Shown here piece by piece: positions 27,237 to 61,119 of a stretch of 64,000 nt of DNA. The notes below the pieces were generated by a model. That model ran no database searches. It had not been told where the DNA came from and was given only the letters and a program-made list of their open reading frames with translations. Each line of letters begins with the position of its first letter. The first letter of the stretch is position 1. A program made the translations under genes and the position numbers. Location: assembly GCF_023100845.1 (NCBI RefSeq), contig NZ_CP095864.1, positions 2,914,001-2,978,000 on the forward strand, in the 5' to 3' direction. This DNA comes from Gordonia sp. PP30 (GTDB lineage: Bacteria > Actinomycetota > Actinomycetes > Mycobacteriales > Mycobacteriaceae).

Positions 27237-28019
27237 TCAGCTGAGCGGTACCCGCGCCACGACGGCGCCCGTCGGCTGATTCGAGCCGCCGGGCGGCTCG
27301 ACCGTGAACGCGAGGTTCGTGGCGTCGCGGACCCCGGGAATCACCGCCGTCGTCGACGGCGCGACGTCCGCCGGGGACATGGTGCCCACCGGGCGCATCG
27401 ACCCGTCGGCCCCTTCGAGCCACATCTGGTACACCGTTCCGGGTTGCGGCGGCGGCACGTCGTTCATCACCAGCACCGCGGCATCCGCGGAATCGGAGTA
27501 GGTGACGGTGGCGCGACCGGTCGCCACGGCCGCCGACCGCGAGGCGACGTCCTTGGCCGAGAACACCTGCTCGGCGATCGGCTGAGCCGGTTCCTTCCGG
27601 TCCGATCCGGCACCGAGCAGCCAGCCCACGACACCGGCCAGCACCGCGACGGCGGCCGCCACGGCCAAGTAGCCGAGCGTCCGGTGCCGCCGATCCCGAA
27701 GCGGCGCCACCGAGGCCGGCAGCCGAGCCGGTCCGGAATCGGCCGTGGCGCCGGAGGATCGCTGCTGCGCAGCCCGGTCGGCGGCATCGCCGGTCGCGGC
27801 GGCGAGCACGGCGTCGCGGAGCCGTGCCGGTGGCGGGGTCGCGTCCGCCGCGCTGACCGTCGCCATCAGCTCCCGCGTGGCCCGCAGTTCCGCGGCGTAG
27901 GCGGCCTGGACCTCCGGGGTCGCCCGGCTCAGCTCGGTCTCGATGTCGGCGAGTTCGGCGGCGTCGAGCGCGTCCAGACCGGCCAATGCCGCGAACTCCA
28001 TGAGCTCTTCGTCAGACAT
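27237..28019 (-). CDS. rskA: Anti-sigma factor RskA
   Basis: 260 residues. The N-terminal sigma-binding domain (SDEELMEFAALAGLDALDAA) has no zinc HxxxCxxC motif, as is normal for RskA. One membrane helix (LGYLAVAAAVAVLAGVVGWLL, about residues 113-133) leads to an extracytoplasmic domain ending in VYQMWLEGADGSMRPVG and PPGGSNQPTGAVV, the RskA C-terminal signature. Its start overlaps the sigK stop by 8 nt. Role: holds SigK at the membrane until proteolysis releases it. Confidence 0.94.
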   Translation of the reverse strand: MSDEELMEFAALAGLDALDAAELADIETELSRATPEVQAAYAAELRATRELMATVSAADATPPPARLRDAVLAAATGDAADRAAQQRSSGATADSGPARLPASVAPLRDRRHRTLGYLAVAAAVAVLAGVVGWLLGAGSDRKEPAQPIAEQVFSAKDVASRSAAVATGRATVTYSDSADAAVLVMNDVPPPQPGTVYQMWLEGADGSMRPVGTMSPADVAPSTTAVIPGVRDATNLAFTVEPPGGSNQPTGAVVARVPLS

Positions 28020-28581
28020 CGCTGTCCCCCAAACACTTTCGGAGGCGGCTGAGTCCGTCTCGGATACGGGACTTCACGGTGGGCAGGGCGACCGACAGCC
28101 GCTCGGCCACCTGGCGGTAGGTCAAGCCCTGGTAGTAGGCCAGATCGACCGACTGGCGCTGGGTATCGGTCAGCGAACCGAGACAGCCCAGAACCCGTTC
28201 GGCGGTCTCGCGGCTCGCCGCCGACTCGGCGACCTGATCGAACTCGCGCTCGGCCGCGGTCACCGCGTACCGGACGTTCCGGTCGGTCGCCGCCGTCTCG
28301 CTGCGGACCCGATCCACCGCCCGGCGATGCGCGATGGTCAGCAACCAGGCGAGCGGCGAGCCCGCCTGCGGGTCGTAGGATTCGGCGGACCGCCAGACGT
28401 GCAGGTAGACCTCTTGTGTCACCTCTTCGCTGTAGCCCGGATCGCGCAGGACCCGACGGACCAGTCCGTAGACGCGAGGGCTCGTCTCGTCGTAGAACGT
28501 GCCGAAGGCTGCGGCGTCACCGTTCGCGACCCGCTCAAGCAGTTCGGGAAGAACTGAGCCCGTCGACGTCGTCACAGTCAC
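28012..28581 (-). CDS. sigK: ECF RNA polymerase sigma factor SigK
   Basis: 189 residues. Region 2: FYDETSPRVYGLVRRVLRD, SEEVTQEVYLHVW and LTIAHRRAVDRVR. Region 4: LTDTQRQSVDLAYYQGLTYR and ALPTVKSRIRDGLSRLR. It lies directly between rskA and the DUF1295 gene, in the order known from M. tuberculosis (Rv0445c/Rv0444c), which supports the name over other ECF factors. Two promoters of SigK type occur about 4.3 kb upstream at the head of this operon, so the operon is probably autoregulated. Confidence 0.94.
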   Translation of the reverse strand: MTVTTSTGSVLPELLERVANGDAAAFGTFYDETSPRVYGLVRRVLRDPGYSEEVTQEVYLHVWRSAESYDPQAGSPLAWLLTIAHRRAVDRVRSETAATDRNVRYAVTAAEREFDQVAESAASRETAERVLGCLGSLTDTQRQSVDLAYYQGLTYRQVAERLSVALPTVKSRIRDGLSRLRKCLGDSDV

Positions 28582-28593
28582 GACGGTAGCTCA

Positions 28594-29406
28594 CTACCCG
28601 CCGCTCGGGTCACGCCGCCGGGGCGGTCTCGGGAGGAAGAACGACGTGCGGCGCCGATACTCGGCGTAGCCGGGCCGGTCACTCATCGACCTCTCCAGCA
28701 GTCGCGCTCCCGTGGCCACGACCAGGAAGTAGGTCATCGCCATCGGCGACGCAACGGTGACCACTCCCGGCCAGGCGCTGGCCGCCACCAGCCATATTCC
28801 CCACCACAGGCACGCGTCCCCGAAGTAGTTCGGGTGCCGCGACCACGCCCAGACTCCGGAGTCCATGATCGTTCCCGCGTTCGCTGGATCCGCCTTGAAG
28901 CGCCGGAGCTGAGCGTCACCGGTGGCCTCGAAGCCGAAGCCCACGATCCACAGGGCCACGCCCGCGCCCAGTACGACCACGGCGGGCCCGGAGGTCGGGC
29001 CGCAGACGGCCGACGCCTGGACGGGCAGCGACACGAACCACTGCGCCGCCCCCTGCGTGCCGAAGACCCGCCGTGCCGCGATGCGCGCCGGTGGGCCGTC
29101 GTACTTGGCGAGCAGCGCCGTGTATCGCGGGTCCTCGCCGTGGCCGCGGCACTTGACGTACATGTGCCACGACAGGCGGACGCCCCAGAGCGTCACCAGC
29201 CCGGCCAGCAGCCATCGGCGCACCGGATCGCCGTCCCCGATCGACAGCGCCAACCATGCGACCCCGACGAATCCCAGGCCCCATCCGACGTCGACAACGT
29301 TGTAGCGGCCGATCCGGTGGCCGATGGCGAACGCCACCGTCTGCAGCACCGCCAGCCACACCAGCGAGGCGCCCGTGAGCACCCCGAATCCCGCCCATCC
29401 GGTCAT
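28594..29406 (-). CDS. DUF1295 membrane protein (steroid 5-alpha-reductase-like fold)
   Basis: 270 residues from the ATG at 29406, which overlaps the cyclopropane synthase stop by 4 nt (ATGA). Multiple membrane helices. Conserved tail SGVWAWSRHPNYFGDACLWWG, then RPGYAEYRRRTSFFLP, the methyltransferase/reductase fold of the ICMT-DUF1295 group that binds NADPH or SAM at the membrane. M. tuberculosis homologue Rv0446c sits in the same place. Its coupling with a fatty-acid methylase and an oxidoreductase suggests work on membrane lipid acyl chains. Confidence 0.92.
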   Translation of the reverse strand: MTGWAGFGVLTGASLVWLAVLQTVAFAIGHRIGRYNVVDVGWGLGFVGVAWLALSIGDGDPVRRWLLAGLVTLWGVRLSWHMYVKCRGHGEDPRYTALLAKYDGPPARIAARRVFGTQGAAQWFVSLPVQASAVCGPTSGPAVVVLGAGVALWIVGFGFEATGDAQLRRFKADPANAGTIMDSGVWAWSRHPNYFGDACLWWGIWLVAASAWPGVVTVASPMAMTYFLVVATGARLLERSMSDRPGYAEYRRRTSFFLPRPPRRRDPSGG

Positions 29407-30755
29407 CGCGAGAATCCCAGCTGCACGACGTCGAGGTAGCCCGACCGAAAGCCGGCCTCGGAATAGGCCAGGTACAGCTCCCACATCCGCAGAAAGGTTC
29501 GGTCGAAGCCCAAAGCGAGGACGTCGTCCTCGCGGGAGCGGAATCGTTCCCGCCACAGCCGCAGGGTCTCGGCGTAGTGCGGACCGAACGATGAGGTGCC
29601 GGTCACCCGCAGCGAGGTCCGTTCCCCGACGACGTCGCCGATCCCCTCCAGCGACGTGAGCTGGCCGCCGGGGAAGACGTACTTCTGCACCCACGTGTAG
29701 GTGTTCTCCGACGCCAGCAGCCGGCCATGCGGCATGGTGATCGCCTGGATCGCGGCGCGGCCGCCCGGCCCGAGCAGCCGATCGATGGACCGGAAGTACT
29801 CGGGCCAGTACTTGCGTCCGACGGCTTCGATCATCTCGACGGACACCACGGCGTCGTATTCGCCCGCGACCTCCCGGTAGTCGCAGAGATCGACGGTCAC
29901 CCGGTCGCCGAACCCGGCTTCGGCGACGCGGCGGCGAGCCAGGTCGCATTGCTCGGCCGACAGCGTCACCGACCGCACGACGGCGCCCCGCTGCGCCGCG
30001 CGCAGGCACAGCTCGCCCCAGCCGGTGCCGATCTCCAGCAGCCGGGTGCCTGGGCCGACACCGGCGACGTCGAGCAGACGATCGATCTTGCGGCGCTGCG
30101 CCGCGGGGAGATCGCTCCACGAGAACCGGGTCTCCCCGGACGGTTCGCACTCGAACAGCGCACTGGAGTAGCTCATCGTCTCGTCGAGGAAGGCCGCGAA
30201 CAAGTCGTTGGACAGGTCGTAGTGCCGTGCGACGTTGGCCCGGGTGTTGGCCGTCGTGTTCTCCTCGTCCGCGGGCGGCCCCGGCAGGACCAGTCGACGC
30301 AGCACCTGGAGCGGACGTGGCACCAGCGCCGCCGTCTCGCGGGCGAAGGGGGTCAGCACGCCGACGAGGTCGTCGGTGGTCCAGTCCCCCGCCATGTACG
30401 CCTCCCCGAATCCGATGAGACCGGTGGCCCCGATCCGGCGGGCGAACGGGCCAGGCCGGCGGACGAGAATCCGTGGCACCTCGGCCCCCGCCGATCCGCC
30501 GGTGACGCCGCCGGGATACTCGACCCGCACGCCCACGCGCCGGGCCGCGCGGCGGAACAACGCGGACGCGGCGGCGCCCCGGGCGCGCGCCACCGCCCCC
30601 GCGGGCACGACGTCGAGGCCGGGCCACCGCCGATCCGCCGGCACCGATTCGCCCTCAGCGGCCGTCTCCCCGGCGGTGGCGTTGCCATCCACGGCGTCGT
30701 CGTCTACTACGTCGTCTTCGACTACAGAGCCTTCACAGGCGGCGCGTGCGCTCAT
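29403..30755 (-). CDS. ufaA1: Cyclopropane-fatty-acyl-phospholipid synthase family methyltransferase (UfaA1-like)
   Basis: 450 residues. An acidic N-terminal extension of about 45 residues (EDDVVDDDAVDGN) is followed by a lipid-binding N-domain and a methyltransferase with NVARHYDLSNDLFAAFLDET, MSYSSALFE, motif I LLEIGTGWGELCLRAA and VSVEMIEAVG. Family action: SAM-dependent methylation or methylenation of unsaturated acyl chains in phospholipids. The M. tuberculosis counterpart Rv0447c has been linked to tuberculostearic acid. The first 23 nt overlap the DUF1365 gene, so translation is coupled. The acidic extension seems particular to this strain or genus. Confidence 0.93.
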   Translation of the reverse strand: MSARAACEGSVVEDDVVDDDAVDGNATAGETAAEGESVPADRRWPGLDVVPAGAVARARGAAASALFRRAARRVGVRVEYPGGVTGGSAGAEVPRILVRRPGPFARRIGATGLIGFGEAYMAGDWTTDDLVGVLTPFARETAALVPRPLQVLRRLVLPGPPADEENTTANTRANVARHYDLSNDLFAAFLDETMSYSSALFECEPSGETRFSWSDLPAAQRRKIDRLLDVAGVGPGTRLLEIGTGWGELCLRAAQRGAVVRSVTLSAEQCDLARRRVAEAGFGDRVTVDLCDYREVAGEYDAVVSVEMIEAVGRKYWPEYFRSIDRLLGPGGRAAIQAITMPHGRLLASENTYTWVQKYVFPGGQLTSLEGIGDVVGERTSLRVTGTSSFGPHYAETLRLWRERFRSREDDVLALGFDRTFLRMWELYLAYSEAGFRSGYLDVVQLGFSR

Positions 30756-31563
30756 GTCCCGACCTGCCGTCCTTTCGCGTTCGATCGTCGTCGTTGCGGT
30801 GTTCGGTGTCGGCCGTCATCGGCCGGTCTTGCGCGGGCCGCGGCACGATCGGTAGTCCCCGACGCCACAGCCGGATGCCCTGCAACCGGATCCGGGCCGC
30901 CACCACCCACGGCGCGAGCGGTGTCGTCACCTGCGCGAGCAGGACGCGCCGGGCCGTCGCCGGCCGGGCCCGGCCGGTCAGGGCGGCGAAGAACGGCCCG
31001 GTCTCCGCCCGTTCCAGAACGATCGAGATCCGCACCCGACCGTCGGCCGCGGGCTCCGGGACCGACAGCCGATAGCGTCCGCTCACATCGTTGAACGGGG
31101 ACACGTAGAAGTCCTTGTCGGCCAGCGCACGGCCGGACGGATCGACACCGACCACGTAGCAGTGCCGACCGCCGTAGGTGTTGTGGACCTCGGCGACGAC
31201 GTGGGCGAGTGCGCCGTCGTGCCGATGACACCAGAACACGCTCAACGGGTTGAACACGTATCCGGCCACGCGCGGCGACATCAGCGCGGTCACCGGTCCG
31301 TTCGCCGGCTCGACACCGATCGCCCGCAGGTGGTGTTCCAGCCTGGTCCGCAGCGTCTGGCCCGGTGCGTACGGTTCCGGGAAGTGGTCGCCGGCCCGGA
31401 AACGGGCGAAGGGCCGGAGCGGGGCGGGCAGTCGCGGCGGATGGTCGATGTCGATCAGCCAGGTGCACGTCCGGTAAGCGAAGGCGTGCGCGATCGGTCC
31501 GGTCCGGCGGTGGACCACTCGTGCGCCGACGATCGAGGGAAGCAGAGAGGTCGACGACGTCAT
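30733..31563 (-). CDS. DUF1365 domain-containing protein
   Basis: 276 residues from ATG 31563, in a 4-nt overlap with the upstream oxidoreductase stop. Conserved features: VVHRRTGPIAHAFAYR, MSPRVAGYVFNPLSVFWCHR, VAEVHNTYGGRHCY and KDFYVSPFNDVSG. Charged C-terminal tail. DUF1365 proteins are regularly clustered with cyclopropane synthase-like enzymes and FAD oxidoreductases; they are presumed to help lipid acyl modification. Homologue of Rv0448c by position and length. Confidence 0.92.
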   Translation of the reverse strand: MTSSTSLLPSIVGARVVHRRTGPIAHAFAYRTCTWLIDIDHPPRLPAPLRPFARFRAGDHFPEPYAPGQTLRTRLEHHLRAIGVEPANGPVTALMSPRVAGYVFNPLSVFWCHRHDGALAHVVAEVHNTYGGRHCYVVGVDPSGRALADKDFYVSPFNDVSGRYRLSVPEPAADGRVRISIVLERAETGPFFAALTGRARPATARRVLLAQVTTPLAPWVVAARIRLQGIRLWRRGLPIVPRPAQDRPMTADTEHRNDDDRTRKDGRSGHERTRRL

Positions 31564-32888
31564 CGGTCCTCCTCGGACGGCGCGGGTGCCGACCAGTCGA
31601 CACCGAGCGCCCGCGCCGCGCGCACACCGGACGCCGCACCGTCCTCGTGGAAGCCCCAGCCGTGGTAGGCCCCGGCGAACACGACCCGATCGGTATCCAG
31701 CTCGGACAGCCGGGCCTGTGCCGCCACGGAGTCCAGCGTGTAGACCGGATGCTCGTAGGTCATCTCGTCCAGGATCGTGCGGGGATCGACCACGTCGGTC
31801 CGGCCCATCGTGACGAGCATCCGTGGCTCGTCGGTGGGCAGCCGCATGAGCCTGGTCAGGTCGTAGGTCACGACGATCGGCGAGGGTGCCGCATCGGCGC
31901 CCGGCCGAAGCACCTCGTCGCGGACCTGGTAGTTCCACGACGCGCGCGCCCGGCGAGCCCTCGGCAGGACCGACTCATCGGTGTGCAGCACCGCGTGCTT
32001 CCGCAGATACGGCATCGCGCCGAGGATCTCCCGCTGCCGCGTCGTCGGCCGTGCGAGGAGCGCGAGCGCCTGGTGCGGGTGCGTCGCGACGACCACCGCG
32101 TCGAAGGTCTCGGTGCGGGTGCTCCCCTCCCGCTCGGAGACCACCTCGACCCCGGCATCGGTCTCCCGCACGGCCCGGACCGGCGACGACACCCGAACCT
32201 CGCCCCGCGCGGCGACGCCACTCGCGAGGGCGTCGACGTAGCTGACCGACCCGCCCACCACGGTGCGCCAGGTCGGCGAACCGAACACCGACAGCATGCC
32301 GTGGTGGTGGAGGAAGGTGAACAGATAGCGCGCCGGATAGTGGGCCGCGGTGTCCGGGTCACACGACCACACCGCGGCGACCAGCGGATACAGGAAGTTC
32401 TGCCGGAAGTATCCGGAGAATCGCTCACGGTCGACGAAGCCGGCGAGCGATTCCCGCGCGTCGCCGGTGTCGAGCGTCCTCCGCGCGGCGCGGTGGAACC
32501 GGCGGATCTCGGCGAGCATGCGCACATAGCGAGGTCTGGCGACGTTCGCGGCGGTCGGGAACAGCCCGGTGAGTCCGCGCGCACCCGCGTACTCGAGTCC
32601 GGTGATCTCCGAGCGGACGGACATCGACATATCGGTGTCCTGCGTGCGTACCCCCAGTTCGGCGAGGAGTCGTTGCAGGGTGGGATAGGTGCGGTCGTTG
32701 TGCACGATGAAGCCGGTGTCGACGGCCAGTTCGGTGCCCGACGGCGTCGTGACGAGGTGGGTGTGAGCGTGCCCGCCCAACCGGTCGTCGGCCTCGAACA
32801 GAGTCACCGGATGCGCTTCGGCGAGCACGTGCGCGGCGGCCAGGCCGGCGACACCGCTGCCCACCACCGCCAGGGATCGGAAGGTCAT
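31560..32888 (-). CDS. FAD-dependent amine-oxidase-like oxidoreductase (Rv0449c homologue)
   Basis: 442 residues from ATG 32888. Rossmann FAD motif VVGSGVAGLAAAHVLAE at the N-terminus, then DDRLGGHAHTH. The C-terminus FAGAYHGWGFHEDGAASGV closes the FAD site. A 27-residue upstream extension (to 32969) was rejected: it would run through the SigK promoter, and the expected transcript start falls on this ATG. First gene of the operon running to rskA. Likely oxidises or desaturates lipid acyl chains with the DUF1365, cyclopropane-synthase and DUF1295 partners. Confidence 0.93.
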   Translation of the reverse strand: MTFRSLAVVGSGVAGLAAAHVLAEAHPVTLFEADDRLGGHAHTHLVTTPSGTELAVDTGFIVHNDRTYPTLQRLLAELGVRTQDTDMSMSVRSEITGLEYAGARGLTGLFPTAANVARPRYVRMLAEIRRFHRAARRTLDTGDARESLAGFVDRERFSGYFRQNFLYPLVAAVWSCDPDTAAHYPARYLFTFLHHHGMLSVFGSPTWRTVVGGSVSYVDALASGVAARGEVRVSSPVRAVRETDAGVEVVSEREGSTRTETFDAVVVATHPHQALALLARPTTRQREILGAMPYLRKHAVLHTDESVLPRARRARASWNYQVRDEVLRPGADAAPSPIVVTYDLTRLMRLPTDEPRMLVTMGRTDVVDPRTILDEMTYEHPVYTLDSVAAQARLSELDTDRVVFAGAYHGWGFHEDGAASGVRAARALGVDWSAPAPSEEDR

Positions 32889-32895
32889 ACCCGCT

Positions 32896-32922
32896 ATTCG
32901 GAGCCGCCTCGGATCCGGATGG
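32896..32922 (-). promoter_or_regulatory. SigK-type promoter for the oxidoreductase-to-rskA operon
   Basis: Reading the minus strand: -35 CCATCC (32922-32917), 15-nt spacer, -10 CCGAAT (32901-32896). The expected start point, 32888-32889, coincides with the ATG of the oxidoreductase, so the mRNA is probably leaderless. The hexamers match the SigK consensus known from mycobacteria. Confidence 0.8.
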
Positions 32923-32965
32923 GTGCGGTCACCGCCCCGGATCTCCGGCGGCTCGCCGAGCACGC

Positions 32966-32992
32966 CCATCCGGGACGGGCCCGGCTCCGAAT
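32966..32992 (+). promoter_or_regulatory. SigK-type promoter for the secreted DUF6764-like and lipocalin genes
   Basis: -35 CCATCC (32966-32971), 15-nt spacer, -10 CCGAAT (32987-32992); the same hexamers and spacing as the divergent promoter 44 bp away. Start point about 32999, giving a leader of about 40 nt before the ATG at 33039. Confidence 0.8.
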
Positions 32993-33038
32993 GATGAGTG
33001 AGCAGCGAAACACGCTGCCGTCGTCACAAGGAGTGATC

Positions 33039-33461
33039 ATGAACTCGAACGCACGCTTCGCGATCGGACTTCTGCTGTGCGGCGCCGGCTTGTCGGCCGC
33101 CGCCGGCCTCGCCGGCACCGGCGCCGCCCAGGCCGCCCCAGACGTCTGCGGTGCGCTCCCCGGCCAGTCGTCGACGATGACGACGTGCTCGGCGAAGGCC
33201 GGGCCGGATGCCATCAGCCTCGCGATCAGCGACGGCGGAGGTATCGCCTGGTCGCAGGGTGACGACCTCTCCGGTCCCGCCGCTATCGCGATCGGCCCCG
33301 GCGCGTCGGTGCAGGCCACGGGCGTCCGGCCCGGTCTGTCCATCGGGATCGCCGGGCCCGGCGCTCACGTGGTGATCGACGGCAGGAAGGGACCGGTATG
33401 CAGCGGCAAGGGATTCGCGTTCGCCGGCGACTTCCAGACGCTGCGGGGTTGCCGGCAGTAG
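33039..33461 (+). CDS. Secreted DUF6764-like protein
   Basis: 140 residues from ATG 33039 with AAGGAG at 33028-33033. The Sec signal peptide ends near AAQA-APD. The mature part is about 105 residues with four cysteines (VCGAL, TTCSAK, PVCSGK, RGCRQ) and a Gly/Ala/Ile-rich middle that looks like a short beta-helix (IAIGPGASVQATG). I recall similar proteins in mycobacteria as DUF6764; that assignment is tentative. It sits behind a SigK promoter, so it should be co-induced with the membrane lipid operon. Confidence 0.8.
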   Translation: MNSNARFAIGLLLCGAGLSAAAGLAGTGAAQAAPDVCGALPGQSSTMTTCSAKAGPDAISLAISDGGGIAWSQGDDLSGPAAIAIGPGASVQATGVRPGLSIGIAGPGAHVVIDGRKGPVCSGKGFAFAGDFQTLRGCRQ

Positions 33462-33502
33462 GCCGCCGCCACCATCCGCACCCATCTCGACAAGGAATAG
33501 CT

Positions 33503-34141
33503 ATGACAATCCGGTTCCACCTGGGCCGACGGGCGCTCTCGGGCCTGCTGGCCGTGACACTCGCCGCCGCCACGGCGCTCGCCGCCGCGCCCGCGCACGC
33601 CGCGCCCGCCGGTTCTCTCCAGCCGGTCCCGCGCCTCGACGTCGAACGCTACCTCGGCACCTGGTGGCAGCAGGCCGCCATCCCGGGCTTCTACAGCGTC
33701 CGGTGTCTGCGCGACACCTCCGCCCACTACGGTCTGATCGACGCCACGACGATCTCGGTGAACAACACCTGCGTCTCGCCGGCCGGGCGGCCCGACGGCA
33801 TCCGCGGGCAGGCGAAAGTCGTCGATCCGCGGTCCCGGGCGCAACTCTCGGTCAGCTTCCCCGGGGTACCGGGGACCCTGAACCCGCAGAACACGCCGAA
33901 CTACATCGTCACCTGGGTGGCGGACGGCCCTCGCCCCGGAGATCCGTACGAGTACGCCATCGTCGGTGACCCGACGCGACTGTCCGGGTTCATCCTCAGC
34001 CGAGACCGGGTGATCTCCACCCGGACCCTGCTCATGCTGCGCGACAAGGCCGAGGAACGCGGCTTCAACACGTGCCTGTTCCTCACTTCTCCCACGACCG
34101 GCGGCCGGAGCGACTACCTGCCGCTGTGCCTGGTCCGCTGA
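33503..34141 (+). CDS. Secreted lipocalin-family protein
   Basis: 212 residues; AAGGAA at 33492-33497. The signal peptide ends near AHA-APA. The mature protein opens with the bacterial lipocalin signature LDVERYLGTWWQQAAIPGFY; the middle carries NNTCVSPAGRPDGIRGQAKV and the C-terminus YAIVGDPTRLSGFILSRD. No lipobox, so exported free rather than lipidated like Blc. Only 41 bp after the DUF6764-like gene with no promoter between, so part of the SigK-driven unit. Likely carries a hydrophobic ligand, perhaps a product of the divergent lipid operon. Confidence 0.92.
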   Translation: MTIRFHLGRRALSGLLAVTLAAATALAAAPAHAAPAGSLQPVPRLDVERYLGTWWQQAAIPGFYSVRCLRDTSAHYGLIDATTISVNNTCVSPAGRPDGIRGQAKVVDPRSRAQLSVSFPGVPGTLNPQNTPNYIVTWVADGPRPGDPYEYAIVGDPTRLSGFILSRDRVISTRTLLMLRDKAEERGFNTCLFLTSPTTGGRSDYLPLCLVR

Positions 34142-34178
34142 GCCCCGGACCGCGGTGGGCGGCGCGGCACCCGCCCGC

Positions 34179-34334
34179 TCACCGCGTCCGCTGCCGGTAG
34201 AGCCAGACGCCGAGAACCAGCAACCAGATCGGCAGGACCACGGCGAGCATCGTCCACTGCTTCTGGCCCACCATCATCGCGGCGGCGATGAACATCAGCA
34301 CGGCGCTGAAGAACATCACGAAGTTCGGGTTCAC
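34179..34334 (-). CDS. 51-residue two-helix membrane protein
   Basis: GTG start at 34334 behind AAGGAG (spacing about 7 nt), stop at 34179. Sequence features: NPNFVMFFSAVLMFIAAAMM as first helix, the loop GQKQW, second helix LAVVLPIWLLVLGVWLYR, and a basic tail RQRTR. Downstream of glyS on the same strand with a convergent lipocalin gene behind it; the glyS stop lies 34 nt upstream, so co-transcription with glyS is likely. Function unknown. Confidence 0.8.
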   Translation of the reverse strand: MNPNFVMFFSAVLMFIAAAMMVGQKQWTMLAVVLPIWLLVLGVWLYRQRTR

Positions 34335-34368
34335 GGTCGACGCTCCTTCGGCGGGGCTGCGTGATCGA

Positions 34369-35754
34369 CTACGCGCCGAGCAGCTTGCCGCCGAGGTACT
34401 CGGCGACCTTGTCGAGAGCGACGCGCTCCTGGGTCATGGCGTCCCGCTCGCGGATGGTCACGGCGTGGTCGTCGAGCGTGTCGAAGTCGACGGTGACGCA
34501 GAACGGGGTGCCGATCTCGTCCTGGCGGCGGTAGCGCTTGCCGATGCTCTGCGCGTCGTCGTACTCGATGGCCCAGTGCTTGCGCAGCTCGTCGGCGAGA
34601 TTGCGCGCGGTCGGCGCGAGCTCGTCCTTCTTCGACAGCGGCAGCACCGCGGCCTTGATCGGGGCGAGGCGACGGTCGAGCCGGAGCACGGTCCGGACGT
34701 CGGTGCCGCCCTTGGCGTTCGGCACCTCTTCCTCGGTGTACGCGTCACACAGGAAGGCCATCATCGAGCGGCCGAGGCCGGCCGCGGGCTCGATCACGTA
34801 CGGGGTGTATCGCTCACCGGTGGCCTGATCGAAGAAGCTCAGGTCCTCGCCGGAGGCCTTGCTGTGCGTCGACAGGTCGTAGTCGGTGCGGTTCGCGATG
34901 CCCTCCAGCTCACCCCACGGATTCCCGGAGAAGCCGAACTTGTACTCGACGTCGGTGGTGCCCTTGGAGTAGTGCGACAGCTTCTCCTGCGGGTGCACGA
35001 AGAGGCGCAGGTTCTCCGGGTCGATGCCGAGGTCCACGTACCAGTCGTGGCGGGCCTGGATCCAGTACTCGTGCCACTTCTCGTCGTCGCCCGGCTTGAC
35101 GAAGAACTCCATCTCCATCTGCTCGAACTCGCGGGTGCGGAAGATGAAGTTGCCCGGCGTGATCTCGTTGCGGAAGCTCTTGCCGATTTGCGCGATGCCG
35201 AACGGCGGCTTCTTCCGCGAGGTGGTCAGCACGTTCTTGAAGTTGATGAAGATGCCCTGCGCGGTCTCCGGGCGGAGGTAGTGCAGGCCCTCCTCGTCGG
35301 CGACGGGGCCGAGGAAGGTCTTGAGCAGGCCGGAGAACTCGCGCGGCTCGGTCCAGGCCCCGGGCTGACCGGTCTCCGGGTCGTTGATGTCGGCCAGACC
35401 ATTCTCCGGCGGGTGGCCGTGCTTCAGTTCGTACGCCTCGATGAGATGGTCCGCGCGGTAGCGCTTGTGCGTGTGCAGCGACTCCACCAGCGGGTCGGTG
35501 AAGACGTCGACGTGGCCGGACGCCTCCCAGACCTGACGCGGCAGGATCACCGAGGAGTCGAGACCGACGACGTCGTCCCGCGAGGTGACCATGCTGCGCC
35601 ACCACTGGTCCTTGATGTTGTTCTTCAACTCGACGCCGAGCGGCCCGTAGTCCCACGCCGAACGCGTACCGCCGTAGATCTCACCGCACGGGAACACCAG
35701 GCCACGCCGCTTGGCGAGGTTGACGACGGCTTCGACTTTGGATTGCACGGCCAC
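34369..35754 (-). CDS. glyS: Glycine-tRNA ligase (alpha2 type)
   Basis: 461 residues with start GTG 35754 (GTG 35748 is an alternative 2 codons later). Starts with the family hallmark [20 protein letters not shown]. Class II motifs: GKSFRNE (motif 2) and [13 protein letters not shown] (motif 3); anticodon-binding domain at the C-terminus ([13 protein letters not shown]). Charges tRNA-Gly in the cytosol. The ORF could extend to 35832, but that would cover its promoter. Adjacent smtB-zur genes match M. tuberculosis order. Confidence 0.96.
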
Positions 35755-59556: not shown

Positions 59557-61119
59557 TCAATCGACCAAGATGTCCCGGATCACCCCGTCGGCCAGCAGCC
59601 GGCCACGATCGGTGAGCACGTAGGCGCCGCCGGTACGGGCCAGGAGACCGTCCGAGACGGCCCGCTCCGCACGGTCGGCCTCGTCTACGGTCAGCTCACC
59701 GGCGGGCAGCCCGGACCGCATCCGGAGCCGGAGCATCACCTGTTCGGTGTGCGTGTCGTCGTCGGTGAGGATCTCGAAGCCGCCGACCGGGAGCGACCCC
59801 GATTCCAGGGACGCCGCGTAGGTGGCCGGATGCTTCTGATTCCACCAGCGCACCCCGTTGACGTGCGAGTGCGCCCCCGGCCCGATCCCCCACCAGTCGT
59901 CGCTGCGCCAATAGGCCTCGTTGTGCCGGCAGACCGAGTCGGGGTCCGGGGCGGCTTCGACACGGCTCGTCGCTGCGCTCCTCACCGGCTCAGCCGGCGA
60001 CGAAAGCTCCGATGCGCCGGCCGAAGGCCGTGTCCGCCCTTCGATCCGGCCCGAGGCGCTGGCCGAGGGCTGTGTCCGCCCTTCGATCCGGCCCGACGCG
60101 CTAACCGAAGGCTGTGTCAGCCCCTCGATCCGGCCCGACGTGCCAGCCGAAGGCCGTGTCCGCCTTTCGATCCGGTCCGAGGCGCTGGCCGAGGGCTGTG
60201 TCCGCCCTTCGATCCGGTCCGAGGCGCTGGCCGAAGGCTGTGTCCGCCCTTTGAGCCGGTCCGAGGCGCTAGCCGAGGGCCGTGTCGAAAAGCCCCCCGA
60301 CCCGGCGGCCGCCGCCCAGTTCGACACCTCATACCAGGTCAGACCGGCCGCCGACAGCCGTGCATCGATCTGCTCGTAGCGCGCCGCGAGGACGTCGTCG
60401 TCGGGCATCGGGACCTCGCCGCGGCGGACCTTGCGGGCGAAGGCGGTGCCGTCCTCGACGATCAGCGCGTACGCCGACACGTGGTCGACGGGCACCGAGA
60501 GGACCGCGTCCAGGGAAGCGGCGAGGTCGTCGTCGGTCTCGCCCGGCGTGCCGTAGATGAGGTCGAGGTTGAGATGCTCGAAACCGGCGGCGGCCGCCTC
60601 CCGCGCCGCCTCGAGCGCGCGGCCCGGCGTGTGCCGGCGTTCCAGGATCCGCAACACGTGCGGCGCCGCGGACTGCATGCCGAGCGAGATCCGCGTGTAG
60701 CCGGCGGCGCGCAGGCCGTCGAAGAACTCCGGTGACGTGGACTCCGGATTGGATTCGGTGGTCACCTCGGCGCCCGGCGCGAGATCGAACGAATTGCGGA
60801 TGGCGCCGAGCAGGTCGGCCAGCCCGGCCGCACCGAGCAGCGACGGCGTGCCGCCGCCGACGAAGATCGTCTCCACCGGACGGGCCGGCGACAGCAGCCG
60901 GGCCGCCGCGTCGAGCTCGCGGCGGACCGCCTCGGCCCACGCGGCCGGCGACGTGGACGACCCGAGCTCACCCGCGGTGTAGGTGTTGAAATCGCAGTAG
61001 CCGCACCGCGTCGCGCAAAACGGCACGTGCAGGTACAGCCCGAACGGCCGCGCCCCCACTGACCTGAGACGACCCGTCGCCTCGGCGGGCAACGGAATCG
61101 ACGGCGCGCGCAGGGACAT
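59557..61119 (-). CDS. hemW: Radical SAM haem chaperone HemW, with tandem-repeat insertion
   Basis: 520 residues from ATG 61119. Radical SAM cluster site HVPFCATRCGYCDFNTYTAG; also IFVGGGTPSLL, ISLGMQSAAPHVLRILERRH, DLIYGTPGETDDD, CRHNEAYWRSDDWWGIGPGA and GIGPGAHSHV. Normal length is about 380-400 residues; the excess is residues 279-367, 6.3 units of 14 residues (TQPSASASDRIEGR), plus flanking repeat-derived sequence. The insertion sits between the EVSNWA strand and the CRHNEAYW segment, a surface loop. Delivers haem to respiratory enzymes. Confidence 0.93.
   Translation of the reverse strand: MSLRAPSIPLPAEATGRLRSVGARPFGLYLHVPFCATRCGYCDFNTYTAGELGSSTSPAAWAEAVRRELDAAARLLSPARPVETIFVGGGTPSLLGAAGLADLLGAIRNSFDLAPGAEVTTESNPESTSPEFFDGLRAAGYTRISLGMQSAAPHVLRILERRHTPGRALEAAREAAAAGFEHLNLDLIYGTPGETDDDLAASLDAVLSVPVDHVSAYALIVEDGTAFARKVRRGEVPMPDDDVLAARYEQIDARLSAAGLTWYEVSNWAAAAGSGGFSTRPSASASDRLKGRTQPSASASDRIEGRTQPSASASDRIERRTRPSAGTSGRIEGLTQPSVSASGRIEGRTQPSASASGRIEGRTRPSAGASELSSPAEPVRSAATSRVEAAPDPDSVCRHNEAYWRSDDWWGIGPGAHSHVNGVRWWNQKHPATYAASLESGSLPVGGFEILTDDDTHTEQVMLRLRMRSGLPAGELTVDEADRAERAVSDGLLARTGGAYVLTDRGRLLADGVIRDILVD
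60021..60286 (-). repeat. 42-bp in-frame tandem repeat inside hemW
   Basis: Six full 42-bp units start at 60021, 60063, 60105, 60147, 60189 and 60231, with a partial seventh at 60273. Plus-strand unit starts CCGARGGCYGTGTCCGCCC. Units are 80-95% alike by eye. It is followed at 59957-60015 by another repeat-like stretch (CTTCGACACGGCTCGTCGC). Confidence 0.93.

Follow-up and report, generated by a model that had tools for sequence, protein, structure and literature searches.

Mirror-image SigK-type promoter motifs predicted to link a lipid-modification operon with a secreted lipocalin in Gordonia

The closest described relative of the locus presented here is the SigK-RskA regulon of Mycobacterium tuberculosis (Rv0449cp; mpt83, dipZ, mpt70). 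The classical targets of SigK are mpt83, mpt70, and dipZ (PMC9861118), and sigK is autoregulated via the Rv0449c promoter, whereas M. smegmatis has no sigK-rskA pair (PMC7509140). Cys133 and Cys183 are the redox cysteines of SigK, and its signal is given as unknown in the same source (PMC7509140); elsewhere the stimuli of SigK are called obscure (PMC9861118). The initial annotation of this DNA listed mpt70 and mpt83 as the known SigK targets in M. tuberculosis. Both are targets, but the reported set is wider and also includes dipZ, the sigK operon, and sigC.

The second relative is the RpoE-ChrR singlet-oxygen regulon of Rhodobacter, which includes ufaD, ufaO, and ufaM. UfaD is a desaturase with an NAD/FAD-binding domain, UfaO is a DUF1365 protein, and UfaM is a SAM methyltransferase (PMC7380195). 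The joint product of the three is a furan fatty acid carried on phospholipids, which vanishes upon exposure to singlet oxygen, and the available sections of the same paper do not mention lipocalin (PMC7380195). The third comparison is with the lipocalins themselves. E. coli Blc and the plant temperature-induced lipocalin (TIL) belong to the same Lipocalin_2 family and fold as the Gordonia protein described below, with a pocket for acyl chains or other hydrophobic ligands.

The window analyzed here is the whole stretch of 64,000 nucleotides from Gordonia sp. PP30. On its minus strand lies an operon with the order FAD oxidoreductase-DUF1365-CMAS-DUF1295-sigK-rskA, in which the frames overlap or almost touch, those of sigK and rskA overlapping. 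On its plus strand, a DUF6764-like gene and a lipocalin gene point away from the operon (Table 1). The sigma/anti-sigma pair is the same as in M. tuberculosis, both redox cysteines are present in SigK, and a SigK-type motif precedes the first gene of the operon. These features, together with the curated SigK score and a full-length RskA in the operon, place the locus in the SigK (ECF19) regulon. Only one match above the SigK cut-off exists in this genome, and its best PDB match is 4nqw, which we take to be the M. tuberculosis SigK. Unlike the M. tuberculosis regulon, this genome contains no match to a fasciclin gene of the MPT83/MPT70 type, a point that goes beyond the initial annotation. The locus is therefore filed as a variant of the SigK (ECF19) regulon, and its predicted exported output is the divergent pair of DUF6764-like protein and lipocalin. 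In the reading favored here, with a probability of roughly 0.7, the divergent SigK motifs would co-activate the lipid/sigK-rskA operon and the secreted pair, and the joint response would protect membrane lipids.

Table 1 Predicted features in and around the 97-bp stretch, in coordinates of the window.
Feature	Coordinates	Strand	Remarks
Anti-sigma factor RskA, N- and C-terminal domains	27237..28019	-	PF22618 and PF10099 above cut-off
ECF sigma factor SigK, Cys133 and Cys183	28012..28581	-	NF007228, 291.6 bits (cut-off 226)
DUF1295 protein, weaker steroid-reductase-like matches	28594..29406	-	PF06966, 243.7 bits
SAM-dependent fatty-acyl methyltransferase (CMAS/CFA family), UfaM/UfaA1-like by family	29403..30755	-	PF02353, 282.7 bits
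DUF1365 protein, UfaO family	30733..31563	-	PF07103, 222.6 bits
FAD-dependent oxidoreductase (Amino_oxidase family), UfaD-like by family, first operon gene	31560..32888	-	Pfam PF01593, 103.6 bits
SigK-type promoter motif of the lipid/sigK operon	32896..32922	-	CCATCC-N15-CCGAAT; start codon 7 nt downstream
SigK-type promoter motif of the DUF6764-like/lipocalin pair	32966..32992	+	46 nt before the ATG at 33039
DUF6764-like protein, signal-peptide-like start, short paralog group	33039..33461	+	PF20550
Lipocalin, signal-peptide-like start, four cysteines (68, 90, 191, 209), no lipobox	33503..34141	+	PF08212, 108.1 bits (cut-off 24)

The operon also resembles the Rhodobacter system, in which an ECF sigma factor likewise stands beside or controls genes for a FAD desaturase-type enzyme, a DUF1365 protein, and a SAM methyltransferase that act on phospholipid acyl chains. 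A DUF1365 gene beside a FAD desaturase-type enzyme and a SAM acyl methyltransferase makes up the gene set of the furan pathway, and this set is present here at the level of Pfam families. Since the UfaD, UfaO, and UfaM families occur in the order FAD, DUF1365, methyltransferase, we infer that the operon may perform an acyl modification related to the Ufa pathway. The sigma group and the anti-sigma type differ between the two systems, and the likeness is one of families.

Exact copies of CCATCC-N15-CCGAAT were found on both strands of the 97-bp stretch at 32896-32992, which lies between the two transcription units, one copy per strand and 27 bp each, just as the initial annotation had described them. 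The -35 boxes of the two opposed motifs are 43 bp apart. When spacers of 14 to 17 were allowed, the window contained 2 matches against a mean of 0.03 in shuffled sequences, and 0 of 100 shuffles reached 2. A genome-wide scan, which the initial annotation had suggested, found 2 exact N15 sites in the whole 4.48 Mb, both in the 97-bp stretch, and the backward-read motif used as a control gave 0 exact N15 sites in the same genome. Judged by exact motifs, the predicted SigK regulon of this genome is one locus. With up to one mismatch, 30 sites were found against 3 for the backward motif; 28 of the 30 lie elsewhere in the genome and enter here as a count. The difference from the control is also clear across the 59 Gordonia genomes, with 142 exact N15 sites against 1.

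Spacers of 14 to 17 added four further exact matches in this genome, which were rejected by eye as unconvincing: two lie in copies of a MITE-like repeat, one in a phage-like gene, and one within a long open frame. The MITE-like element has the terminal inverted repeats CGTGTTGCGAAA...TTTCGCAACACG and occupies two places in the genome (1398-1552 of L001 and 1475-1629 of L002), with CCATCC-N14-CCGAAT inside.

On the minus strand, the ATG of the FAD enzyme directly follows the motif, and its distance of 7 nt from CCGAAT fits a leaderless transcript of the FAD operon. The same arrangement is conserved in the genus. The start codon lies at +7 of the -10 box in 36 of 38 Gordonia FAD-operon loci (28 of them frame-checked and 8 assigned by codon reading alone, with a 2-mismatch motif in L024 among these 8). 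In the remaining two loci, the start codon is found at 8 nt in one and at 24 nt, with an N14 site, in the other. The motif with up to one mismatch stands ahead of the operon in 37/38 loci, and it is exact in 11/38. These data support the earlier proposal that the minus copy drives a leaderless, autoregulating sigK-rskA operon, as a prediction from sequence. N14 sites with one mismatch also recur in many loci about 300 bp beyond the FAD gene; they seem to reflect some other conserved sequence and were left uncounted.

The identity of CCATCC-N15-CCGAAT as the SigK signal was taken over from the initial annotation. Its placement before MPT83-like, DipZ-like, and sigK-operon genes indicates that the motif is of the SigK type. 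In 13 Gordonia loci read, it also occurs 5' of the MPT83-like fasciclin gene in 9 and of the divergent DipZ-like gene in 7, a further likeness to the M. tuberculosis regulon and a positive control from within the genus; fasciclin was assigned by Pfam, and DipZ-like is a name given by eye, as are IPP isomerase and SRPBCC below. A fasciclin domain is present in 44 of the 59 Gordonia genomes, and an exact motif was found at 20/46 fasciclin domains.

The view that every motif match is a SigK target was rejected, because 74 of the 142 exact Gordonia sites fall outside the lipocalin, fasciclin, DUF1365-operon, DUF6764, and DipZ-side classes. A subset of the 74 was read. It contained two DUF6764 genes missed by the coordinate rule and several plausible targets (a likely IPP isomerase, polyprenyl synthases, and SRPBCC-like proteins), and the rest of the subset stood before no clear gene or within a frame. 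Six of the 142 exact sites are in genomes without SigK, and four are in genomes with a weaker paralog only.

The lipocalin was found in 46 of 59 Gordonia genomes, mostly away from the sigK operon. The motif with up to one mismatch is upstream of 42 of these 46 lipocalin genes, directly in 38 cases and before a first gene in 4. Those 4 include this genome, and the preceding first gene is DUF6764-like or a fasciclin gene. The exact motif is directly upstream of 17/46 lipocalins, or of 19/46 when operons are counted. As a control, 300 scrambled motifs were placed on the 46 lipocalin upstream regions, which gave a mean of 0.15, a maximum of 7, and no exact one. A motif at up to one mismatch is absent from four of the 46 lipocalins. 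Allowing 2 mismatches recovers a site for three of these, including one fragmentary gene, and none for the fourth.

The presence of the lipocalin follows the presence of SigK. Among Gordonia genomes with SigK at 254 bits or more, 46/48 have the lipocalin, compared with 0/11 of the others (Fisher 2.8e-10), where the 254-bit line was drawn after the gap from 236 to 255 bits had been seen and the genomes were treated as independent with kinship uncorrected. With the curated SigK cut-off of 226 instead, the numbers are 46/51 and 0/8. Two genomes (G037 and G052) have SigK and the lipid operon and lack the lipocalin. Ten others carry SigK and the lipocalin in the absence of the DUF1365 gene, which indicates that the lipocalin is not dependent on the lipid operon. 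Taken together, the distribution and the motifs support the prediction that the lipocalin gene is a SigK target.

The DUF6764-like gene stands first on the plus strand. An AAGGAG stretch resembling a ribosome site precedes its ATG, and the lipocalin gene follows after 41 nt; the signal peptides of both proteins were judged by eye. DUF6764 proteins of Gordonia form a short and a main paralog group. The window protein matches 29/30 short-paralog loci at 114-163 bits and 2/30 main-paralog loci at 32 bits. Elsewhere in Gordonia, the motif was found 5' of 22/28 short paralogs, the 28 being chosen weak Pfam matches after 15 other weak matches with long or partial frames had been excluded by eye, and the exact motif 5' of 14/29. 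In comparison, it was found 5' of 0/30 main paralogs scanned, out of 55 found. The suggestion of the initial annotation that the plus copy serves the DUF6764-like gene is thus supported at the level of prediction. The DUF6764-like and lipocalin genes, which elsewhere mostly have one SigK-type promoter each, share one here.

The Lipocalin_2 domain and fold are both present in the window lipocalin, and its AlphaFold2 model has a mean pLDDT of 88.8. When the model was searched by Foldseek, the best solved neighbors were Blc-derived proteins, E. coli Blc (one entry with vaccenic acid), and heme-bound Arabidopsis TIL. Cys 68 and Cys 90 are invariant among 50 sequences, and Cys 191 and Cys 209 are nearly so. 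The protein is distinct from Blc and TIL in its four conserved cysteines, its missing lipobox, and its SigK-type promoter. Against the NCBIfam model of the outer-membrane lipoprotein Blc proper (NF007786), it scores 45.4 bits, below the cut-off of 267, and it has no lipobox cysteine.

The relationship between lipocalin and SigK was also followed in other genera. A search of the whole family detected the lipocalin in 214/301 genomes (25/31 genera) and SigK, at E <=1e-60, in 242/301 genomes (28/31 genera). The upstream regions of 60 lipocalins from 16 other genera were scanned; these had been chosen before DNA retrieval, with up to 4 per genus and more for g22, g23, and g6, and at least 11 are probably shared with the loci of the named scan described below. 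The motif was found in 20 of the 60, and scrambled motifs gave a mean of 0.12 and a maximum of 4. By genus group, it precedes 13/13 lipocalins in g23 (Rhodococcus), 4/4 in g9, 1/3 in g21, 1/1 in g24, and 1/2 in g19; g21 includes strains titled Rhodococcus. The complete agreement in g23, added to the count within Gordonia, upholds the earlier suggestion of the lipocalin as a target of the plus copy, as far as motifs can predict it. Upstream of the lipocalin, no motif was found in Nocardia (g22, 0/7), in g6 (0/6), or in the remaining sampled genera, though SigK is present there. This indicates that the link is bound to certain lineages. Similarly, in the named scan the motif was within 80 bp of the lipocalin in 7/7 Rhodococcus loci, and no Nocardia locus had it within 800 bp of the lipocalin.

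The mirror layout itself, also a point beyond the initial annotation, is shared between genera. In a set of 96 lipocalins, taken from genomes listed in both the lipocalin and the SigK search and excluding Gordonia and a second lipocalin of G116, 30 are within 15 kb of a SigK gene and all 30 are divergent from it (often g21, g23, and g27). Eleven lipocalin-SigK regions, picked for the nearness of the two genes, were read; in 8 of them a single gap carries a motif on each strand, the two facing outward. The FAD operon is opposite the lipocalin, as it is here, in Rhodococcus sp. RD6.2 and R. triatomae, with one mismatch per motif; in R. jostii, a fasciclin gene is opposite the lipocalin and both motifs are exact. 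The layout occurs in four genus groups including Gordonia, and thus looks old and not like a chance feature of this one genome. The lipocalin does not always have the motif immediately before it. In g27, the motif stands before a fasciclin-lipocalin operon, ahead of fasciclin, in all 5 regions read, which explains why the 250-bp upstream scan gave 0/4 for this group. A link between lipocalin and Ufa genes across phyla was considered and rejected, as two gammaproteobacterial lipocalin loci have no Ufa-type neighbors.

In ten Nocardia loci (L100, L107, L109, L125, L130, L142, L143, L148, L149, and L151), the lipocalin lies within several kb of FAD-DUF1365-CMAS genes with no motif close upstream. 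The linkage of lipocalin and lipid genes in Nocardia may be older than the SigK promoter, or another promoter may be used.

A mechanism can be proposed in four steps. As in the M. tuberculosis work, a signal would free SigK from the membrane-bound RskA. SigK would then transcribe both its own operon, from the predicted leaderless start and with positive feedback as a result, and the exported pair. The FAD enzyme, the DUF1365 protein, and the methyltransferase would methylate, desaturate, and oxidize acyl chains of membrane phospholipids, with a furan- or methyl-branched fatty acid as the likely product. The lipocalin, exported and disulphide-bonded, would bind fatty acyl chains or oxidation products in the cell wall; the initial annotation had suggested a role in the export or binding of a modified lipid. 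The lipocalin would replace the MPT83/MPT70-type fasciclin output that is absent from this genome. Such a response would likely serve to keep membrane lipids from being oxidized, and its most likely inducer is light or singlet oxygen.

Light is favored as the inducer because of three observations: light induction in M. kansasii, motifs at isoprenoid genes, and a UV effect on the RskA of Nesterenkonia. In M. kansasii, the mpt83 and mpt70 homologues are light-induced, and dipZ, which lies between them with a putative SigK site, is not light-regulated (PMC9861118). In the Nesterenkonia proteome, RskA is lowered by UV (PMC8965627). Within Gordonia, an exact motif precedes polyprenyl synthase genes in 5 genomes (Pfam-checked in 3, the other 2 identified by matching protein starts). 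One of these 5 also has a likely IPP isomerase gene with an exact motif, followed by genes of the phytoene-synthase and amine-oxidase families. The phytoene synthase gene of this genome has no motif nearby at up to one mismatch, so the link to light comes from relatives only. The SigK-RskA complex of M. tuberculosis has been reported to be stabilized by oxidation (PMC7509140), which fits poorly with a simple oxidative activation of SigK.

The exact motifs at isoprenoid genes lie at 2616 (+) and 11220 (-) of L274, at 7246 (-) of L275, at 5088 (+) of L276, and in L266 and L267; those of L274 lie inside a carotenoid-type cluster. In L261 and L264, exact motifs precede two genes whose products resemble each other, are about 150-165 residues long, and look SRPBCC-like by eye.

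A wider and more speculative proposal, against which the odds stand somewhat, would make SigK a sigma factor for membrane photo-oxidation. Its core output in Gordonia and Rhodococcus would be an antioxidant lipid module that combines furan-type fatty acid enzymes with a DUF6764-like partner and an exported lipocalin handling oxidized acyl chains, joined in some species by carotenoid synthesis. The mycobacterial MPT83 and MPT70 would then be another exported branch of the same old response.

Other explanations concern the chemistry, the regulator, or the plus-strand motif. The operon methyltransferase is a member of the CMAS family, and UfaA1 (Rv0447c) is presumably its M. tuberculosis counterpart. 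In vitro synthesis of 10-methylstearate by UfaA1 has been reported (cited in PMC5660069). On this view SigK would still co-regulate the genes, but the enzymes would yield a 10-methyl (tuberculostearic-type) or cyclopropane fatty acid, and the response would adjust membrane order and not oxidation. This is unlikely but deserves serious consideration, since the DUF1365 protein and the UfaD-type FAD enzyme are the furan fatty acid set (PMC7380195), and 10-methylstearate has been attributed instead to bfaA-bfaB, with UfaA1 lacking a redox domain (PMC5660069). The ligand of the lipocalin could also be another hydrophobic small molecule, such as heme, a carotenoid, an antibiotic, or an imported lipid, with general envelope stress behind the co-expression with the lipid operon. 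Heme-bound plant TIL, biliverdin-binding sandercyanin, and crustacyanin are among the neighbors of the fold, antibiotic capture has been reported for a bacterial lipocalin (PMC5350466), and the DUF1365 gene is missing from the 10 lipocalin-bearing Gordonia genomes noted above. We regard this option as rather doubtful, as Blc, the nearest natural bacterial structure, has an entry bound to vaccenic acid, and in several genera the lipocalin is found where sigK is, frequently together with the lipid operon.

That the motif is read by a different ECF sigma factor, which co-regulates sigK and the lipocalin in place of SigK itself, is improbable. Related ECF factors can share promoters, and many Gordonia carry at least two SigK-family paralogs; this genome, however, has the single match above the cut-off, and the lipocalin follows the strong SigK class and is absent from the 3 genomes whose sole SigK-family match is a weaker paralog slightly above the cut-off. 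It is more improbable still, indeed very much so, that the minus promoter alone works, with the plus motif a chance match or duplicated echo and the DUF6764-lipocalin pair transcribed otherwise. The stretch GGCTCCGAAT is common to both motifs, as in a local inverted duplication. Yet lipocalins elsewhere carry the motif with differing spacers, GGCT ahead of CCGAAT is common there too, and the rule joining motif and lipocalin also holds in g23. In addition, neither a sigma-70-like promoter nor a terminator-like site was found in the region 32700-34400 of the window.

The initial annotation held that a lipocalin target of SigK would be new. No such target was found in the literature searched, with Veyrier 2008 on SigK regulon evolution outside that search, and priority is not certain. 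Among the first matches listed for SigK with lipocalin, no title concerned this topic, and none of the papers matched for SigK in Gordonia contains the name of the genus. The available text of PMC7509140 and PMC9861118 likewise contains no mention of lipocalin. For SigK with carotenoids in Rhodococcus there was no report in the sections searched, the Nesterenkonia paper alone being matched. For the purpose of the SigK regulon, Gordonia suggests a theme of acyl-lipid modification, a lipocalin, and sometimes isoprenoid genes. The candidate inducer, light or singlet oxygen, is testable in tractable actinobacteria. A bacterial lipocalin under the control of one dedicated regulator, as the locus would show, has a parallel in plants, where loss of a plastid lipocalin is described as raising the sensitivity to lipid oxidation (PMC9312247).

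Several minor sites were also observed. In Gordonia G036, which has no fasciclin, lipocalin, or DUF1365 matches, an exact motif (1123 of L270, minus strand) lies before a short ORF with a lipoprotein-like product, next to a weaker SigK-family paralog. Within the window, a degenerate motif with 2 mismatches, CCATCC-N15-AGGAAT, lies on the plus strand at 33472-33498, just 5' of the lipocalin ATG and overlapping its ribosome site; it may be a decayed promoter of the lipocalin's own. Three similar 2-mismatch sites (CGATCC...CCGAAG) are found on the plus strand at 60084-60236, with starts 42 and 84 bp apart, and are probably a short tandem repeat.
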